This document shows, one piece after another, positions 6,477 through 11,297 of a stretch of 47,410 nucleotides of DNA (position 1 is its first letter; each line of letters opens with the position of its first letter). Source of the DNA: Anaerolineaceae bacterium. GTDB taxonomy: Bacteria > Chloroflexota > Anaerolineae > Anaerolineales > Anaerolineaceae. The position numbers and the translations under genes are program-made. The stretch covers positions 1 to 47,410 of the forward strand of contig PWSY01000060.1 of assembly GCA_003563055.1 (NCBI GenBank), read 5' to 3'. The notes under the pieces were generated by a model, which was not told the origin of the DNA, made no database searches, and saw only the letters and a program-made list of their open reading frames with translations.

Positions 6477-6864
6477 CTTGTTCTCTCTTGAATATAGGGT
6501 GCTTTCATATATTATACCCATATGATCTTTGCCTATGAGCAGTGATGAGGTTTGGTGGGGTGGACACAGGTTGGCGTTATAATCAAACCTACTACCTTCA
6601 GTAGTAGGACTGCCTGAGTAATGACTATTTGTCAGGCAAAATGTTATGACCAGATGAGGAGTCTTGACGTTGATAACAGGAATTACACACTTTATTATTA
6701 TGACATCTGTACTATTAAATCTTGGCCTGGCACAATAGAGACAAAAAATTGGATATAATATAAAAATGACCTTATTGAATATTAGGTTATCATTAATTTA
6801 AGTCCAGCTTGATGGCATTTATTCATGATGCTATTATCAGAAAACGATTAATTGGGAAGCCATA
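6477..6864. promoter_or_regulatory. Divergent regulatory region of yjbQ-like gene and the STAND regulator
   Basis: No gene is visible here. Two adjacent inverted repeats stand out: CCTACTAC/GTAGTAGG (6588-6608, 8-bp stem, 5-base loop) and TGCCTGA/TCAGGCA (6611-6638, 7-bp stem). A good TATAAT -10 element is at 6754-6759, giving a transcript leader of about 100 bases for the regulator; no matching -35 was found. The two hairpins could be operator sites or RNA structure. Confidence 0.4.
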
Positions 6865-9800
6865 GTGGAAAGTAAATACCCCGTTACACGTACCAAACTA
6901 ATCATCCCTCGAAGGCGTGATGAGATACTAACCCGTCAACGTTTGTTAGCTTTCTTGGATGACTTGCTTGACCTGAAATTAATCATCCTGGCTGCACCTG
7001 CAGGCTACGGAAAGACCTCGTTATTAGTCGATTTCGCCAGCAGTACTGAGTGGCCAATAGGATGGCTTGCCCTGGATGCCCTTGATCAGGACCCTTTTCG
7101 GTTTATTGCGCACTTTATCAGTGCTATCCAGGCTCGTTTTCCAAAATTTGGCATCAATGCCATCTCTGTCCTCAATAACACACCACAAGATCAAATAAAT
7201 TTACCGGGGTTGGTCTCAACACTGGTCAATGACATTTATGACAATATCCCGGAGCATTTCATTATCATTCTTGATGATTTTCACCTGGTTGAGGATAGTG
7301 AAACAGTTAATCAATTCGTAAACAGGTTCTTGCAAGAAGTCGATGAGAATTGTCACTTAATTGTGTCATCACGTCGGTTATTAACTTTACCAGACATGCC
7401 ATTATTGGTGGCACGCAATCAGGTGGGCGGTATTTCATTCGAAGAGATATCATTTTCTGCTGAAGAGATCCAGCAATTATTTCTGCAGAATTATCACAAG
7501 ACCATTACGGATAAGACCGCTGAGGAAATCACACAACAAACAGAGGGGTGGATTACGGGTTTACTCCTTTCTTCTCAACTGCTGGAAGGTGAAATTGGTG
7601 AGCGCCTTCGTGCTGCCCGTGTGTCTGGTGTGGGTCTCTATGACTACTTAGCACAACAGGTGTTTGACAATCAACCAGACAACATCCAGAGTTTTCTGCT
7701 GCGCACAGCTATCATGGAGGAATTCAACGCCGGCAGTTGCGAGCTTGTGATTGGTAAGGGATTAGGCATTCAAGCGCCATGGCACGGATTGATGGATGAA
7801 ATTATGGTGCGCAATCTTTTTGTTCTGCCTGTGGATGAAGGCGGTGATTTCTACTTGCGTTATCATCATCTTTTCCGGGATTTCCTGCAAACCAAATTTC
7901 AACGAGAACGTCCGCAAGAGTTACAGGTCATCACCATCGCGTTGGCGGATTATTATGCACAACTAAAAGATTGGGAGCGCGCTTTTGTGCTTTACAAAAA
8001 GGTTTGCGCGACCGAAAAGATGATTGACCTGGTTGAGAGGGCAGGCCCGGTGATGGTTACAGGCGGGAAACTGGTTACCTTACGAGAATGGATTGCCGCC
8101 CTGCCGCCAGAAATTGCGACTTCGCGACCATCATTACTCTCACTGCAAGCGGCAATTTTGATGAGCACAGGGGAGGTTAATCAAAGCATCAAAATTTTAG
8201 ATGAAGTCATCGACCGTTTAACACTGGATACCGAAGATATTGAGGTTTTATGCTTAAGCCTCCTTCGCAGAACTGTTGCCCATCGTATGTTGGGTGATTA
8301 TCAAAAAGCCTTAGAAGATAATCGTAAGGCAATTACGATTCTTGATGGCAAACCCGATTTTGGGTTGATTAAGGCAGAAGCTTTAAGAAATAAGGGATTA
8401 ACGCTTTATCTGCAGGGAGAATTTAAAAGGGCATTGAGCGTCCTTAAACAATCCTTACGTTTGTTTAAAAGCTATGATGATTTTGAGAATATCCTGAAAA
8501 TTCAATTTAATATTGGTTTATTGCACAAAGTGTTGGGTGACTATGTTCGTGCTGAGATGATGTACCAAGAAGCGCTTGATTATTGGAAATCGGGGGGCAA
8601 CCTGGCATGGGCTACTGAGTTAACGAATAACTTAGGTGTGTTGCAGCAATTGCGAGGGGATTATGAGTCATCCGCTAAGAATTTTGAAATAGCCATTGAA
8701 TACGCTCGGGTCTGCAATTCACCCAAGGCCGAAGCATTAAGTCTTACCAGCCTGGGGGATTTGTACCGAGAGCTTGAATCATCCCGAGAGGCATTGGATG
8801 TTTATAAGCAGGCTTATGCGATTGCAAAGCAATTGAATGATGGATTCTTATTATTCTATTTAGACCTGGCAGAAGGCGTTCTCAATCGATTAAGTAAAGA
8901 CTTCACAAAAGCTAAACTTTCTTTTGAATCAGCTAAGAAAAAAACCTCAGAAATTAAATCTGCTTATAGCATAAACTTGCTTGAATCAGAGTGGGCAATG
9001 TTTTATCTATCATTAAACCAGTACGCTAAAGCCCTGGAATCTGCCCAAAAGGCTCTTGATTATTTTGAATCCGAAGGGAATGAAAACGAATCCTTCAGGG
9101 CCGCGTTTAGTTGTGCATTAGCGTCTGCAGGTGAAGGGAATAAAGACCGGGCATCTGCTTACCTGGCAAAGGTTCTACCTGCAATGTTGGAAAACAATTA
9201 TGCCACACCATTGATTATACAAGCCTGTGAATTTAGAAATATCCTTGCTGCAGTCAAAGGAAAGCATGAATTGAAGAAACAATTTTCCAGAATCATCGAG
9301 CGTGTGGAGGCGTTTGACGAGAAACTGCCCGCGCTTCGACGTGCAGTTCGTCAGCAAGCCACAATTGTTCCCTTTGCACCACCCAGGATGGTTATCCAGT
9401 CATTTGGGAAAGCCCAGGTGCACTTAAATAACAGGCTTGTGTCGAATAGCGACTGGCAGACTCAGACTGCAAGAGATTTGTTTTTCTTGTTCCTGGCGCA
9501 TCCGGAAGGTTTGACCAAAGAACAGGTAGGGTTGAATTTCTGGCCGGATGCTTCGCAGGAGGAACTCAGGCTGCGTTTTAAAAATTCGCTTTACAGGCTA
9601 AGACGAGCGGCAGGCCGACAGGCGGTTCTTTTACAGGATGATTATTACCAGTTCAACTGGTCAATGGATTATGAATACGATGCCGAAACATTCAAAACTG
9701 CCATCGAACGTTCGCAATCAACCGCCGACGAGCAGGAGATTGTCAATAACCTGAAAACTGCGATTGAGCAGTATAAGGGAGATTATCTCTCAGAGATTGA

Positions 9801-10110
9801 TGAAATCTGGGCCATTGCTGACCGTCAAGGCTATTATCAGCTCTACATAGATGCCCTAATGCGTTTAGCAAATCTGTACATGGAACGTAAAGCCTATAAG
9901 ACGGCTTTGCGTTTTTGCTACCAGGCTTTGAGTGAAGATGCTTGTTTAGAAGACGCTCATCGGCTGGCAATGCGGATCCATGCAGCAACAGGAAACCGGG
10001 CTGCCATTGTGCGACAATACGAACGCTGCCGCTTGGCATTGACCAAAGAAATAAATGCGCCACCATCACAACAAACCCGGGACCTTTACCAAACCCTGGT
10101 CCAAAAATAA
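6865..10110 (+). CDS. MalT-like STAND ATPase regulator with TPR array and C-terminal SARP/BTAD domain
   Basis: The 1081-residue protein begins with the LuxR/MalT-type signature (TRTKLIIPRRRDEILTRQRL), then a STAND NTPase with Walker A APAGYGKTS (about 45-52) and Walker B IIILDDFH (133-140). Residues about 380-820 are helical repeats of TPR type (for example LGDYVRAEMMYQEALDYW). The C-terminus is not the LuxR helix-turn-helix of MalT: it has a winged-helix OmpR-like domain (about 840-925, with TARDLFFLFLAHPEGLTKEQV) and a bacterial transcriptional activator (BTAD) domain to the end, as in SARP regulators. The start is GTG at 6865 with a weak GGGAAG upstream. It probably senses a ligand via TPRs and activates nearby genes, most simply the peptide trio that follows. 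Confidence 0.9.
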   Translation: MESKYPVTRTKLIIPRRRDEILTRQRLLAFLDDLLDLKLIILAAPAGYGKTSLLVDFASSTEWPIGWLALDALDQDPFRFIAHFISAIQARFPKFGINAISVLNNTPQDQINLPGLVSTLVNDIYDNIPEHFIIILDDFHLVEDSETVNQFVNRFLQEVDENCHLIVSSRRLLTLPDMPLLVARNQVGGISFEEISFSAEEIQQLFLQNYHKTITDKTAEEITQQTEGWITGLLLSSQLLEGEIGERLRAARVSGVGLYDYLAQQVFDNQPDNIQSFLLRTAIMEEFNAGSCELVIGKGLGIQAPWHGLMDEIMVRNLFVLPVDEGGDFYLRYHHLFRDFLQTKFQRERPQELQVITIALADYYAQLKDWERAFVLYKKVCATEKMIDLVERAGPVMVTGGKLVTLREWIAALPPEIATSRPSLLSLQAAILMSTGEVNQSIKILDEVIDRLTLDTEDIEVLCLSLLRRTVAHRMLGDYQKALEDNRKAITILDGKPDFGLIKAEALRNKGLTLYLQGEFKRALSVLKQSLRLFKSYDDFENILKIQFNIGLLHKVLGDYVRAEMMYQEALDYWKSGGNLAWATELTNNLGVLQQLRGDYESSAKNFEIAIEYARVCNSPKAEALSLTSLGDLYRELESSREALDVYKQAYAIAKQLNDGFLLFYLDLAEGVLNRLSKDFTKAKLSFESAKKKTSEIKSAYSINLLESEWAMFYLSLNQYAKALESAQKALDYFESEGNENESFRAAFSCALASAGEGNKDRASAYLAKVLPAMLENNYATPLIIQACEFRNILAAVKGKHELKKQFSRIIERVEAFDEKLPALRRAVRQQATIVPFAPPRMVIQSFGKAQVHLNNRLVSNSDWQTQTARDLFFLFLAHPEGLTKEQVGLNFWPDASQEELRLRFKNSLYRLRRAAGRQAVLLQDDYYQFNWSMDYEYDAETFKTAIERSQSTADEQEIVNNLKTAIEQYKGDYLSEIDEIWAIADRQGYYQLYIDALMRLANLYMERKAYKTALRFCYQALSEDACLEDAHRLAMRIHAATGNRAAIVRQYERCRLALTKEINAPPSQQTRDLYQTLVQK

Positions 10111-10170
10111 AACAAATCACAATTAACCATAAAGACAATGTCTCCTGTGAGATGTGTTTCGTTTTGCTTA

Positions 10171-10182
10171 TTCACATGTGAA
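10171..10182. promoter_or_regulatory. 12-bp perfect palindrome upstream of the peptide operon
   Basis: TTCACATGTGAA is a perfect palindrome between the regulator stop and the peptide gene. It is a candidate binding site, either for the SARP-type regulator just upstream or for an unrelated factor. SARP proteins usually bind direct repeats, which weakens the first reading. No clear -10/-35 pair was identified in the same gap. Confidence 0.3.
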
Positions 10183-10336
10183 ACGGTTTAAATCCCCAGA
10201 ATCGGCTTCTTTTTGAGCCTGTTTTGCAGGGTGTTTTAAAGCCTTCCGCACAGGATAATATAGGCAATGTTATCAGGGTTATTGAACCTTAACCACACTC
10301 TCTAATCTAAACCAATGTAAGATGAAAGGAATTACC

Positions 10337-10480
10337 ATGAATAAGCTCTCAAATAAAGTCCAATACCTCGTCAGCCGTGTTGACAATCGCACCCTCCGCT
10401 TGATCGTCACAATTGCGGGCCTGGCACTGTTCGTCCTGGCAGCAGGTGCCCCTGATGGTGTGGGTCCTGTTGGTATGTAA
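10337..10480 (+). CDS. 47-residue single-span peptide, candidate exported signal peptide precursor
   Basis: A short gene with AAAGGA seven bases before its ATG encodes MNKLSNKVQYLVSRVDNRTL, then a hydrophobic stretch (about residues 20-36, ending LFVLAAGA) and a short tail PDGVGPVGM. The layout is a basic N-terminus, one hydrophobic helix and a small Gly/Pro/Val tail after an AxA-like site, as in precursors of short secreted peptides. The stop overlaps the start of the DUF5317 gene by one base (TAATG), so the two are translationally coupled. No homologue is recalled by name. It could alternatively be a small membrane subunit of the DUF5317 protein. Confidence 0.65.
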   Translation: MNKLSNKVQYLVSRVDNRTLRLIVTIAGLALFVLAAGAPDGVGPVGM

Positions 10481-11079
10481 TGATCCTGGTTTTTGCTGTC
10501 GTTGTTGGTCTGGCAGCAGGTTTGTTAAAAGCAAAACTGAGGGGTGTCACATATCAGCCCTTGGACCTGGTACATATTTGGCTCATTTTTATAGCAGCCA
10601 TACCACAATATCTTGCTTTTTTTCTGCCAGCGACGCGCTCAAGGATACCTGACCAGTGGATCCCATTCATTTTAATTAGCACACAATTCATCCTGCTCGT
10701 TTTTGTTTGGTTGAATCGAAAAACACCCTTTGTATGGTTGTTTGGCTTAGGCCTACTGCTTAACTTTGTGGTTATTTGCTTGAATGGTGGTTGGATGCCA
10801 ATCTCACCTGAGACGCTCACCTCCCTGGGAGCACCGGAATCGAGCTTTCGGATTGGGTCCAGACATGGTTATGGCAAAGACATCGTGCTAACAAAAGACA
10901 ACACGATTTTGTGGATATTATCCGACATTCTGAAACTGCCCAGGTGGATACCCTATCGGATTGCATACAGTGTTGGTGATGTGCTCATAGCTGCTGGTGT
11001 GATTGGGTTCCTATTTATGAGTAAAAAAGAACAGCATAATGACAAAAAAAGTAAAACCACAGGAGCATTAATATTATGA
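10480..11079 (+). CDS. DUF5317 family membrane protein
   Basis: The 199-residue product has about five hydrophobic segments. It carries the DUF5317 pattern: NGGWMPISPE near residue 105, then a conserved IGSRHGYGKDIVLTKDNTIL and a C-terminal LPRWIPYRIAYSVGDVLIAAG. The function is unknown. It is sandwiched between the 47-residue peptide gene (TAATG overlap) and the Os1348-like gene (ATGA overlap), so all three are made from one mRNA in fixed order. A role in exporting or processing the peptide is an inference from context only. Confidence 0.78.
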   Translation: MILVFAVVVGLAAGLLKAKLRGVTYQPLDLVHIWLIFIAAIPQYLAFFLPATRSRIPDQWIPFILISTQFILLVFVWLNRKTPFVWLFGLGLLLNFVVICLNGGWMPISPETLTSLGAPESSFRIGSRHGYGKDIVLTKDNTILWILSDILKLPRWIPYRIAYSVGDVLIAAGVIGFLFMSKKEQHNDKKSKTTGALIL

Positions 11080-11297
11080 CAAAGAATTTTCACACACAAC
11101 AAGAATTTAGCCGTTTGCTAACCGCAGCAGTGATTAATGGTTCTTTCAGACAGGCGCTGTTAAATAACCCTGGTGAAGCGATCTCATCTGGTTTTGGTGG
11201 AGAAGCCTTCAATATTGGTGAAGATGTTCTAAAACGTCTGTCTACAATCCGGGCGAATTCTCTGGCAGAGTTTGCATCGCAATTAGCCAGTATTTAG
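11076..11297 (+). CDS. Os1348/NHLP-like small protein
   Basis: This 73-residue protein has no membrane segment. Its pattern, FSRLLTAAVINGSFRQALLNNPGEAI... then a late SLAEFASQL, resembles the nitrile-hydratase-like leader peptide (NHLP) fold seen in the Os1348 family of Chloroflexota (FRxxLLxxPxxAL core). Its ATG overlaps the DUF5317 stop by four bases. NHLP proteins are known as leader peptides of modified natural products, but there is no modifying enzyme nearby and no Gly-Gly core, so here it may be a regulatory or partner protein. Family assignment is moderate. Confidence 0.6.
   Translation: MTKNFHTQQEFSRLLTAAVINGSFRQALLNNPGEAISSGFGGEAFNIGEDVLKRLSTIRANSLAEFASQLASI

Follow-up and report, generated by a model that had tools for sequence, protein, structure and literature searches.

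The window analysed in this study is a stretch of 47,410 nucleotides from an Anaerolineaceae bacterium (assembly GCA_003563055.1, contig PWSY01000060.1), and this report concerns four consecutive genes on its forward strand, which encode a STAND-TPR-BTAD regulator, a small peptide precursor with a single hydrophobic span, a DUF5317 membrane protein and an Os1348-like protein, in that order. The original prediction, made from this DNA alone, had read the locus as a candidate peptide-signalling module. All four open reading frames (ORFs) that it described, including the 1081-aa regulator and the 47-aa peptide, are present where it placed them, and the overlaps TAATG and ATGA that it reported at the peptide/DUF5317 and DUF5317/Os1348-like junctions were found in the window sequence. 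We report that the four-gene set is a conserved cassette reaching well beyond the window, and that among tandem copies of the peptide the C-terminal tail is the constrained part. The cassette looks like an undescribed peptide-signalling system.

Genes and features of the locus

The following features were assigned in the window.

6865-10110, + strand: STAND-TPR-BTAD regulator, GTG start, 1081 aa (ORF and family scans)
Regulator residues ~1-420: STAND ATPase part, MalT-like (NF003420)
Regulator residues ~430-850: TPR array (TPR_12)
Regulator, before the BTAD: winged helix-turn-helix (wHTH), read by eye
Regulator residues 939-1078 of 1081: BTAD (E 1.7e-12)
10210-10245, + strand: direct repeats, three imperfect units of 12 bp (TTTTTGAGCCTG / TTTTGCAGGGTG / TTTTAAAGCCTT), the putative operator at which the regulator would act
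10254-10259, + strand: -10-like box GATAAT, 8 nt past the last repeat
10337-10480, + strand: peptide precursor, 47 aa (ORF), with a basic N-terminus, a single hydrophobic span, an LFVLAAGAP motif and a short tail
10448-10477, + strand: codons for residues 38-47, the tail APDGVGPVGM; relatives with tandem copies keep this part
10480-11079, + strand: DUF5317 membrane protein (Pfam match and AlphaFold2 (AF2) model)
11076-11297, + strand: Os1348-like / NHLP-clan-like small helical protein (ORF and NCBIfam match)

The architecture claimed for the regulator, STAND followed by TPRs and a winged-helix/BTAD end, agreed with the family matches: the N-terminus is a MalT-like STAND region (E 1.3e-67, under the family cut-off) and the repeats matched TPR_12 with E 1.2e-31. 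The DUF5317 protein (PF17248) scored 126.3 bits (E 1.3e-36) against a gathering cut-off of 25. For the last gene, an Os1348-like match does exist (NF038399, E 1.3e-7), but at 31.6 bits it falls below the 40-bit cut-off, and the proposed Os1348/NHLP assignment is kept here as a likeness only; the AF2 model of this protein (pLDDT, the AF2 confidence measure, 79) gave nothing below E 6 in Foldseek. The peptide gene is present in a single copy in the window genome.

Distribution of the cassette

Gene neighbourhoods were compared in a first set made up of the best 80 of 158 loci from a DUF5317 alignment, nearly all of them from Chloroflexota. A small single-span ORF ended close upstream of DUF5317 in 76 of the 80 (28-54 aa where a start was assigned) and an Os1348-like ORF followed in 78, being cut in L025 and not found in L055, so that the neighbourhood expected by the original prediction was largely borne out in this set. 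The four loci without the upstream ORF comprise two that are cut by contig ends (L026 and L061), one with three copies downstream instead (L027) and one with none (L064). A BTAD regulator was encoded upstream in 65 of the 80 loci, and in 62 of the 69 having at least 1,500 nt of upstream sequence. Named species with a cassette include Leptolinea tardivitalis (L071), Ornatilinea apprima (L037) and Anaerolinea thermolimosa (L095), the last having no regulator gene next to it.

A gene for an HD-GYP phosphodiesterase was a further downstream partner in 61 of 76 loci (window included; flank of at least 1,500 nt), mostly lying no more than ~110 nt past the Os1348-like gene. HD_5 was matched with E below 1e-33 in all ten HD-GYP proteins scanned, seven of which also carry GAF/PAS domains. 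The gene is missing from the cassette of the window and of its genus relatives L024 and L026. Separately, 9 of 81 loci have, ~460 nt past the cassette and in the same orientation, a gene that by eye resembles a response regulator (7830-9521 in L028, for instance), and the Os1348-like ORFs of L051, L029 and L057 have Cys/Gly ends with a terminal GD (CATGD, CCAGD and AVCGD), possibly a small core of their own.

Among 61 relatives, DUF5317 is present in 22. A regulator orthologue (E <= 1e-120) occurred in all 22 of these and in two of the 39 others, a co-occurrence with a Fisher value of ~1e-14, the genomes being related. The two others are G001, where the gene is cut at a contig end, and G024; G030 and G034 carry the regulator away from the cassette, on long contigs. 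Strong matches to a peptide profile (E <= 5e-10) were found in 21 of the 22 DUF5317 genomes, the remaining one (G030) carrying four short, divergent copies, and in none of the 39 DUF5317-negative relatives, where the profile matched weakly at best (E 0.001-0.007, frames 110-529 aa long).

Across 298 class genomes, 35 matched the regulator at E <= 1e-150, and 30 of these also have DUF5317; G086 matched the regulator and not DUF5317, but its contig ends too close by to judge. In a second set, 40 class-wide loci were chosen by DUF5317, avoiding genera and families already seen; they comprised 24 loci with the peptide and 16 without it (one of these, L239, cut by a contig end). An adjacent BTAD was present in 22 of the 24 and in 0 of the 16; the second-set loci L194-L220, chosen by the regulator, lie outside this statistic. 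Five second-set loci are on first-set contigs (L194, L196, L206, L227 and L237). Among the 16 peptide-free loci, Os1348 was present in one (L227), and an HD-GYP gene stood directly upstream in ten, four of which were read in detail; L064, on the same contig as L227, keeps DUF5317, Os1348 and HD-GYP, and neither peptide nor regulator was found there. The HD-GYP-first loci without peptide, BTAD and Os1348 are L225, L229, L240, L242, L244, L245, L247, L248, L253 and L255. In one family (f59, L257-L260) the order was seen to be rearranged, with Os1348 upstream of DUF5317, after the regulator and the peptide.

The peptide precursor and its tail

At E 1, neither Pfam nor NCBIfam gave a family for the window peptide, and 65 aligned peptide relatives gave no consistent one (no more than three members per family, best E 0.0016). 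Extra tandem copies and the near-duplicates L051 and L068 were left out of this alignment, and L035, L041, L055, L057, L066, L067, L078, L090, L091 and L102 are also outside it. The profile gave 89 matches (E up to 10) among the 22,766 ORFs of the 80 loci and the window; 84 were directly upstream of DUF5317, and four of the other five are real extra copies (L027 and L050). Between pairs of four genus relatives, synonymous (pS) and non-synonymous (pN) differences in the peptide were 0.45-0.70 and 0.11-0.25, respectively, which indicates purifying selection. Because of this selection, and because the profile matches are concentrated upstream of DUF5317, the cassette peptide is taken to be more than a chance ORF. 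In G030 the precursor has shrunk to 28 residues, and its four copies differ only synonymously.

A small-residue motif precedes the tail. A-P was found in 65 of 65 aligned first-set peptides, with GAAE in L035 and GALE in L066 and L067 outside the alignment. Of the 40 second-set peptides whose fetched piece also holds DUF5317 (four are on first-set contigs), 38 have G-A-P and the others GGP and AAP. The peptides of L209 and L219 are outside the profile matches and were assigned by eye. The original prediction had placed the tail after an AxA-like site. Span and tail are both present, but signal peptidase I usually refuses Pro at +1, and since a cut before P39 at the AxA site would put Pro in that position, a cut after G37 fits better.

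Tandem arrays of the peptide gene indicated which part of the precursor is under constraint. The tails are identical in 10 of 12 arrays, and the leaders diverge in most. The first six arrays hold 22 copies; their tails, counted from A-P, were identical at 293 of 293 pairwise positions, with 0 non-synonymous versus 95 synonymous changes in the codons, while the span was identical at 516 of 570 positions and the N-terminus at 178 of 250; one L144 copy lacks the last tail residue, and the overlap was compared. In six further arrays (13 copies), for which the first 12 tail residues were compared and the N-terminal part may include pre-start residues, the tail was identical at 81 of 86 positions, with 5 non-synonymous versus 22 synonymous changes, four arrays being identical. 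Pairs inside one array are not independent. Synonymous divergence in the first six arrays was 0.375 in the tail and 0.31-0.43 elsewhere; as the tail is as divergent as the rest in this respect, recent gene conversion is not the explanation. Among tandem copies it is the tail that is constrained, and it is very probably the active product. In the four genus relatives, the tails after the same AAGA are PDGVGPVGM, PDSVGGIGMQ, PDGVGGVGMR and PDGCGGIGMQ.

At L027 (~6600-7000) and L141, including L004 (~7180-7450), a GC-rich stretch with an inverted repeat fills the peptide slot upstream of DUF5317, and the peptide genes lie downstream instead. The shared inverted repeat was seen by eye, and the loci are related.

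Direct repeats upstream of the peptide gene

The repeat units of the window start at 10210, 10222 and 10234, and are imperfect (best 7/9) yet fit the layout of the relatives. A period-12 repeat (at least 8/9 matching) between regulator and peptide was found in 62 of 76 loci versus 3.5% in shuffles, the other periods from 8 to 18 staying near background except for 11 (9/76) and, slightly, 9 (7/76). TANNNT stands exactly 8 nt past the last unit in 38 of the 62 clear-box loci, any other single offset being seen in no more than 5. Among 24 deeper cassettes, 23 of which are new (L237 shares a contig with L073), period 11 occurred in 11 and period 12 in 5, with shuffles at ~2% each, and among 15 peptide-free DUF5317 genes period 11 occurred in 0 and period 12 in 2. 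SARP regulators are described as binding 11-bp units in the available text of PMC5930380 and PMC10972967.

A search with one box variant (no more than 2 mismatches) returned seven sites in the 61 genomes and ten in the 298 class genomes, six being at the cassette in each case, with three cassette sites common to both sets; the reversed control of this variant gave zero sites. The repeats are the presumed operator, and we consider it highly likely that the regulator controls the operon through them. Two of the ten class-wide sites, L145 and L149, are apparently inside genes and are taken as chance. A near-consensus box was also seen before a gene for a long secreted RHS/YD-repeat protein in Ornatilinea apprima (G026:C8; L142, ~4340 onward), and boxes in two g43 genomes (L150 and L151, ~1500 onward) precede short LuxR-type helix-turn-helix (HTH) ORFs, downstream of which lie a DUF1906-like and an M23-peptidase-like ORF, named by eye. 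These three off-cassette sites look real and hint at extracellular outputs.

The DUF5317 protein

The AF2 model of the window DUF5317 protein (pLDDT 94.4) has five long helices, read as transmembrane spans, and conserved loop features at N102-G-G-x-M-P, K133, D149 and S164-x-G-D167. All 123 aligned DUF5317 proteins share N79, G91, N95, N102-G-G-x-M-P, D149, S164, G166, D167 and G173. K133 behaves differently, being present in 107 of 109 cassette-type proteins (a count that includes the peptide-free L064 and the cut L061) versus 2, L223 and L228, of the 14 proteins compared from peptide-free loci (L227 and L239 are outside the 14). The positive-inside rule would place loop 102-163 outside, where the GAP motif and the tail should emerge.

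A sequence search of the PDB gave a single match (E 0.32), a plasmid search gave no match, and DUF5317 was unmentioned in the literature searched. LspA was considered as a relative, as the C-terminal F-S-x-G-D-x-x-I-x-x-G of DUF5317 resembles F-N-x-A-D-x-x-I-x-x-G; the relationship is not claimed.

Lineages with the regulator but without a DUF5317 match

Three lineages keep the regulator and have no DUF5317 match. The g44 genomes G188, G280 and G333 (97-99% complete) encode a profile-matched peptide with a span, in which VVQGP or LTKAP takes the place of the GAP motif and the tail reads TDGSIGPVR, LDGSIGPVR or SDGGGGPF. In G024 (88% complete), which retains Os1348, HD-GYP and the repeats, a small ORF without a hydrophobic span, MTANFKSIDQNSMSIFASSPTASGGIGGV, stands where the peptide gene would be. 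In G212 (99% complete; L210, 529-702, reversed strand), a leaderless 57-residue ORF between regulator and Os1348 consists of MA and five tandem units of RTPSGPSGWGG or RTPSAPSGWGG. Judged from these sequences, loss of DUF5317 appears to accompany loss of the GAP motif or of the leader in three lineages. The tail would then track the regulator, and the leader with its GAP motif would track DUF5317; the independent events behind these two links are few, three and one respectively.

Proposed mechanism

We lean towards a cassette for peptide signalling that regulates itself, with DUF5317 handling the anchored precursor and the tail being sensed by the regulator. The basis of this reading is gene order, co-occurrence, tail constraint, operator-like repeats and the apparent link of DUF5317 with the leader and GAP motif, all of them read from sequence. 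In the proposed mechanism, the regulator would bind the tandem 11/12-bp repeats and switch on the downstream operon. The product of the small ORF would be a precursor anchored in the membrane, with its C-terminal tail, mostly 6-12 residues long, as the active part; DUF5317 would recognise this precursor and most likely release or present the tail, which could act back on the TPR regulator, so that the system induces itself. Co-transcribed partners or outputs would be the Os1348-like protein and, outside the genus of the window, the HD-GYP phosphodiesterase of many relatives.

The separate steps differ in strength. It is somewhat more likely than not that DUF5317 acts on the anchored precursor, and its help with tail release, as originally proposed, fits the co-loss of DUF5317 and the GAP motif or leader; that it does so by cleavage is doubtful. 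Sensing by the TPR regulator was also part of the original prediction. Adjacency, co-occurrence, one co-loss and the operator-like repeats favour it, but co-variation gave no clear support, and we hold the matter to be evenly balanced. A cyclic-di-GMP output where HD-GYP is present is possible, though not quite likely.

Several results weigh against this reading. Export, cleavage, binding of the tail to the regulator and the cyclic-di-GMP output are steps that we infer. In Mantel tests of tail against TPR, controlling for the other regulator domains left a partial r of 0.094 (p 0.10), versus r 0.215 (p 0.0015) when DUF5317 alone was controlled for, and box versus wHTH did not go beyond phylogeny (partial r -0.04, p 0.68). 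The genome of the window has a single site for its 32-nt box pattern (no more than 3 mismatches), the one in the cassette. At E <= 1e-150, 53 of the 83 DUF5317 genomes of the class had no regulator match. The tail conservation looked for by the original prediction holds among tandem copies, but tails vary inside two of the 12 arrays (one residue in L249, more in L250, with unlike extensions), and between the four genus relatives the tail is no better kept than the span (pN 0.16 versus 0.12). The G024 and G212 ORFs were unmatched by the peptide profile and were assigned by position and eye. Similarity of DUF5317 to LspA is weak (NCBIfam E 0.028; hhalign local probability 7.9, E 0.0044), and no protease fold was supported by Foldseek (best E 1.4) or VIA (best Z 6.2), whose hits were unrelated chains, with LspA not in the lists. 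An HD-GYP gene was downstream in only 1 of 24 deeper cassettes, within the ~0.5-1.5 kb fetched. Finally, DUF5317 is also found without the peptide, next to HD-GYP: the small ORF that was expected before DUF5317 was there in 24 of the 40 class-wide loci and absent from 16, L239 being cut; DUF5317 genes without that ORF are what the original prediction had named as a refutation, and they are found in part of the loci.

Alternative explanations

The peptide-free loci with HD-GYP upstream suggest a more general link between DUF5317 and HD-GYP, and because of them DUF5317 is given a second, peptide-free role and may be a sensor rather than a protease. Taken as the whole explanation, DUF5317 would be a membrane receptor or sensor signalling to HD-GYP and no processing enzyme. 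In its favour, an HD-GYP gene neighbours DUF5317 both with the peptide (61 of 76 cassette loci) and without it (10 of 16 loci), and the same DUF5317 residues are invariant in both contexts. We regard this as unlikely, though the least so of the alternatives, with cassettes lacking HD-GYP in the genus of the window and in 23 of the 24 deeper loci (as far as fetched), and with the cassette persisting in three lineages without a DUF5317 match.

The retention of a tail by g44 peptides without DUF5317, and the tail-like ORFs without a span in G024 and G212, likewise tell against the peptide being a small, unprocessed integral subunit of a DUF5317 membrane complex that the regulator merely controls. 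Tandem copies moreover keep the tail better than the span, and arrays of up to five copies would be odd for a subunit. Such a complex would account for the co-occurrence of peptide and DUF5317 in the 61 genomes, for the junction overlaps, and for K133 being nearly confined to cassette-type DUF5317; on the whole we think it improbable.

A bacteriocin- or toxin-like peptide with DUF5317 as its immunity protein would explain multi-copy precursors, a polytopic membrane partner and the patchy occurrence of the cassette among close relatives. It is very unlikely, given DUF5317 genes beside HD-GYP without a peptide, DUF5317-free lineages that retain a tail or tail-like ORF, and a dedicated STAND-TPR regulator, which points to signalling. 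The least probable explanation, a ribosomally synthesised and post-translationally modified peptide (RiPP) with the Os1348-like protein as leader in trans and the tail as core, can draw on the nearness of that protein to the NHLP RiPP-leader clan and on the multi-core-like repeat of G212, but no recurrent candidate modifying enzyme appeared among ORF clusters of at least 110 aa in the 81 loci (mostly named by eye), where the next same-strand cluster after regulator, DUF5317, HD-GYP and Os1348 is the response-regulator-like one of nine loci.

Comparison with known systems

The original prediction had drawn a parallel between the module and RRNPP quorum sensing. As an analogy this holds: as the available texts describe for RRNPP(A) systems (Rap, Rgg, NprR, PlcR, PrgX and AimR), a TPR regulator adjoins a small propeptide, basic and hydrophobic, that is presumed to carry the signal in its last residues, and multiple similar propeptides or intragenic repeats occur. 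The 47-aa precursor is inside the propeptide size range of 10-100 aa given in the available part of PMC10075063, the regulator has the TPRs, and the two genes are adjacent in the window, G030 and G034 having the regulator at a distance. RRNPP propeptides are secreted by Sec or PptAB; the window precursor shows a basic N-terminus and a hydrophobic span. The parallel fails on size and architecture. With 1081 aa, the window regulator is outside the 250-500 aa given for RRNPP receptors, and it has an N-terminal STAND ATPase and a C-terminal BTAD in place of the N-terminal HTH or three-helix bundle that precedes the TPRs according to the consulted part of PMC9765709. The cassette also belongs to Chloroflexota and adds DUF5317, Os1348 and often HD-GYP. 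On account of regulator size and architecture, it is not an RRNPP member.

Like SARP and SARP-LAL regulators (AfsR, PimR), the window regulator combines a BTAD with a STAND ATPase, and the operator-like direct repeats before the presumed target gene are spaced about one helical turn apart, with an 11-bp period in many deeper lineages. Unlike them, it has its BTAD at the C-terminus rather than the N-terminus, most relatives of the window show a 12-bp period, and an operon for a peptide takes the place of antibiotic genes as the presumed target. With MalT and the LAL regulators it shares a STAND ATPase followed by a TPR domain, but it ends in a BTAD-type region instead of a LuxR HTH. The Os1348-like domain recalls the NHLP / Os1348 RiPP leaders; unlike in these, the window protein has no core past the domain.

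Significance

Chloroflexota are abundant in sediments and digesters. No peptide signalling system in Chloroflexota or Anaerolineae was found in the literature search, as far as the available texts reach. Tentatively, the cassette may represent a new class of peptide signalling, widespread in Anaerolineae, in which a STAND-TPR-BTAD activator is paired with an undescribed peptide family, the tail would be the signal, DUF5317 would be a precursor-handling protein (possibly a new intramembrane protease) and cyclic-di-GMP hydrolysis would be a frequent output. If true, this would give a function to the orphan membrane family DUF5317, a ligand candidate to the STAND-TPR-BTAD regulator and, for each species, a short peptide open to direct testing.

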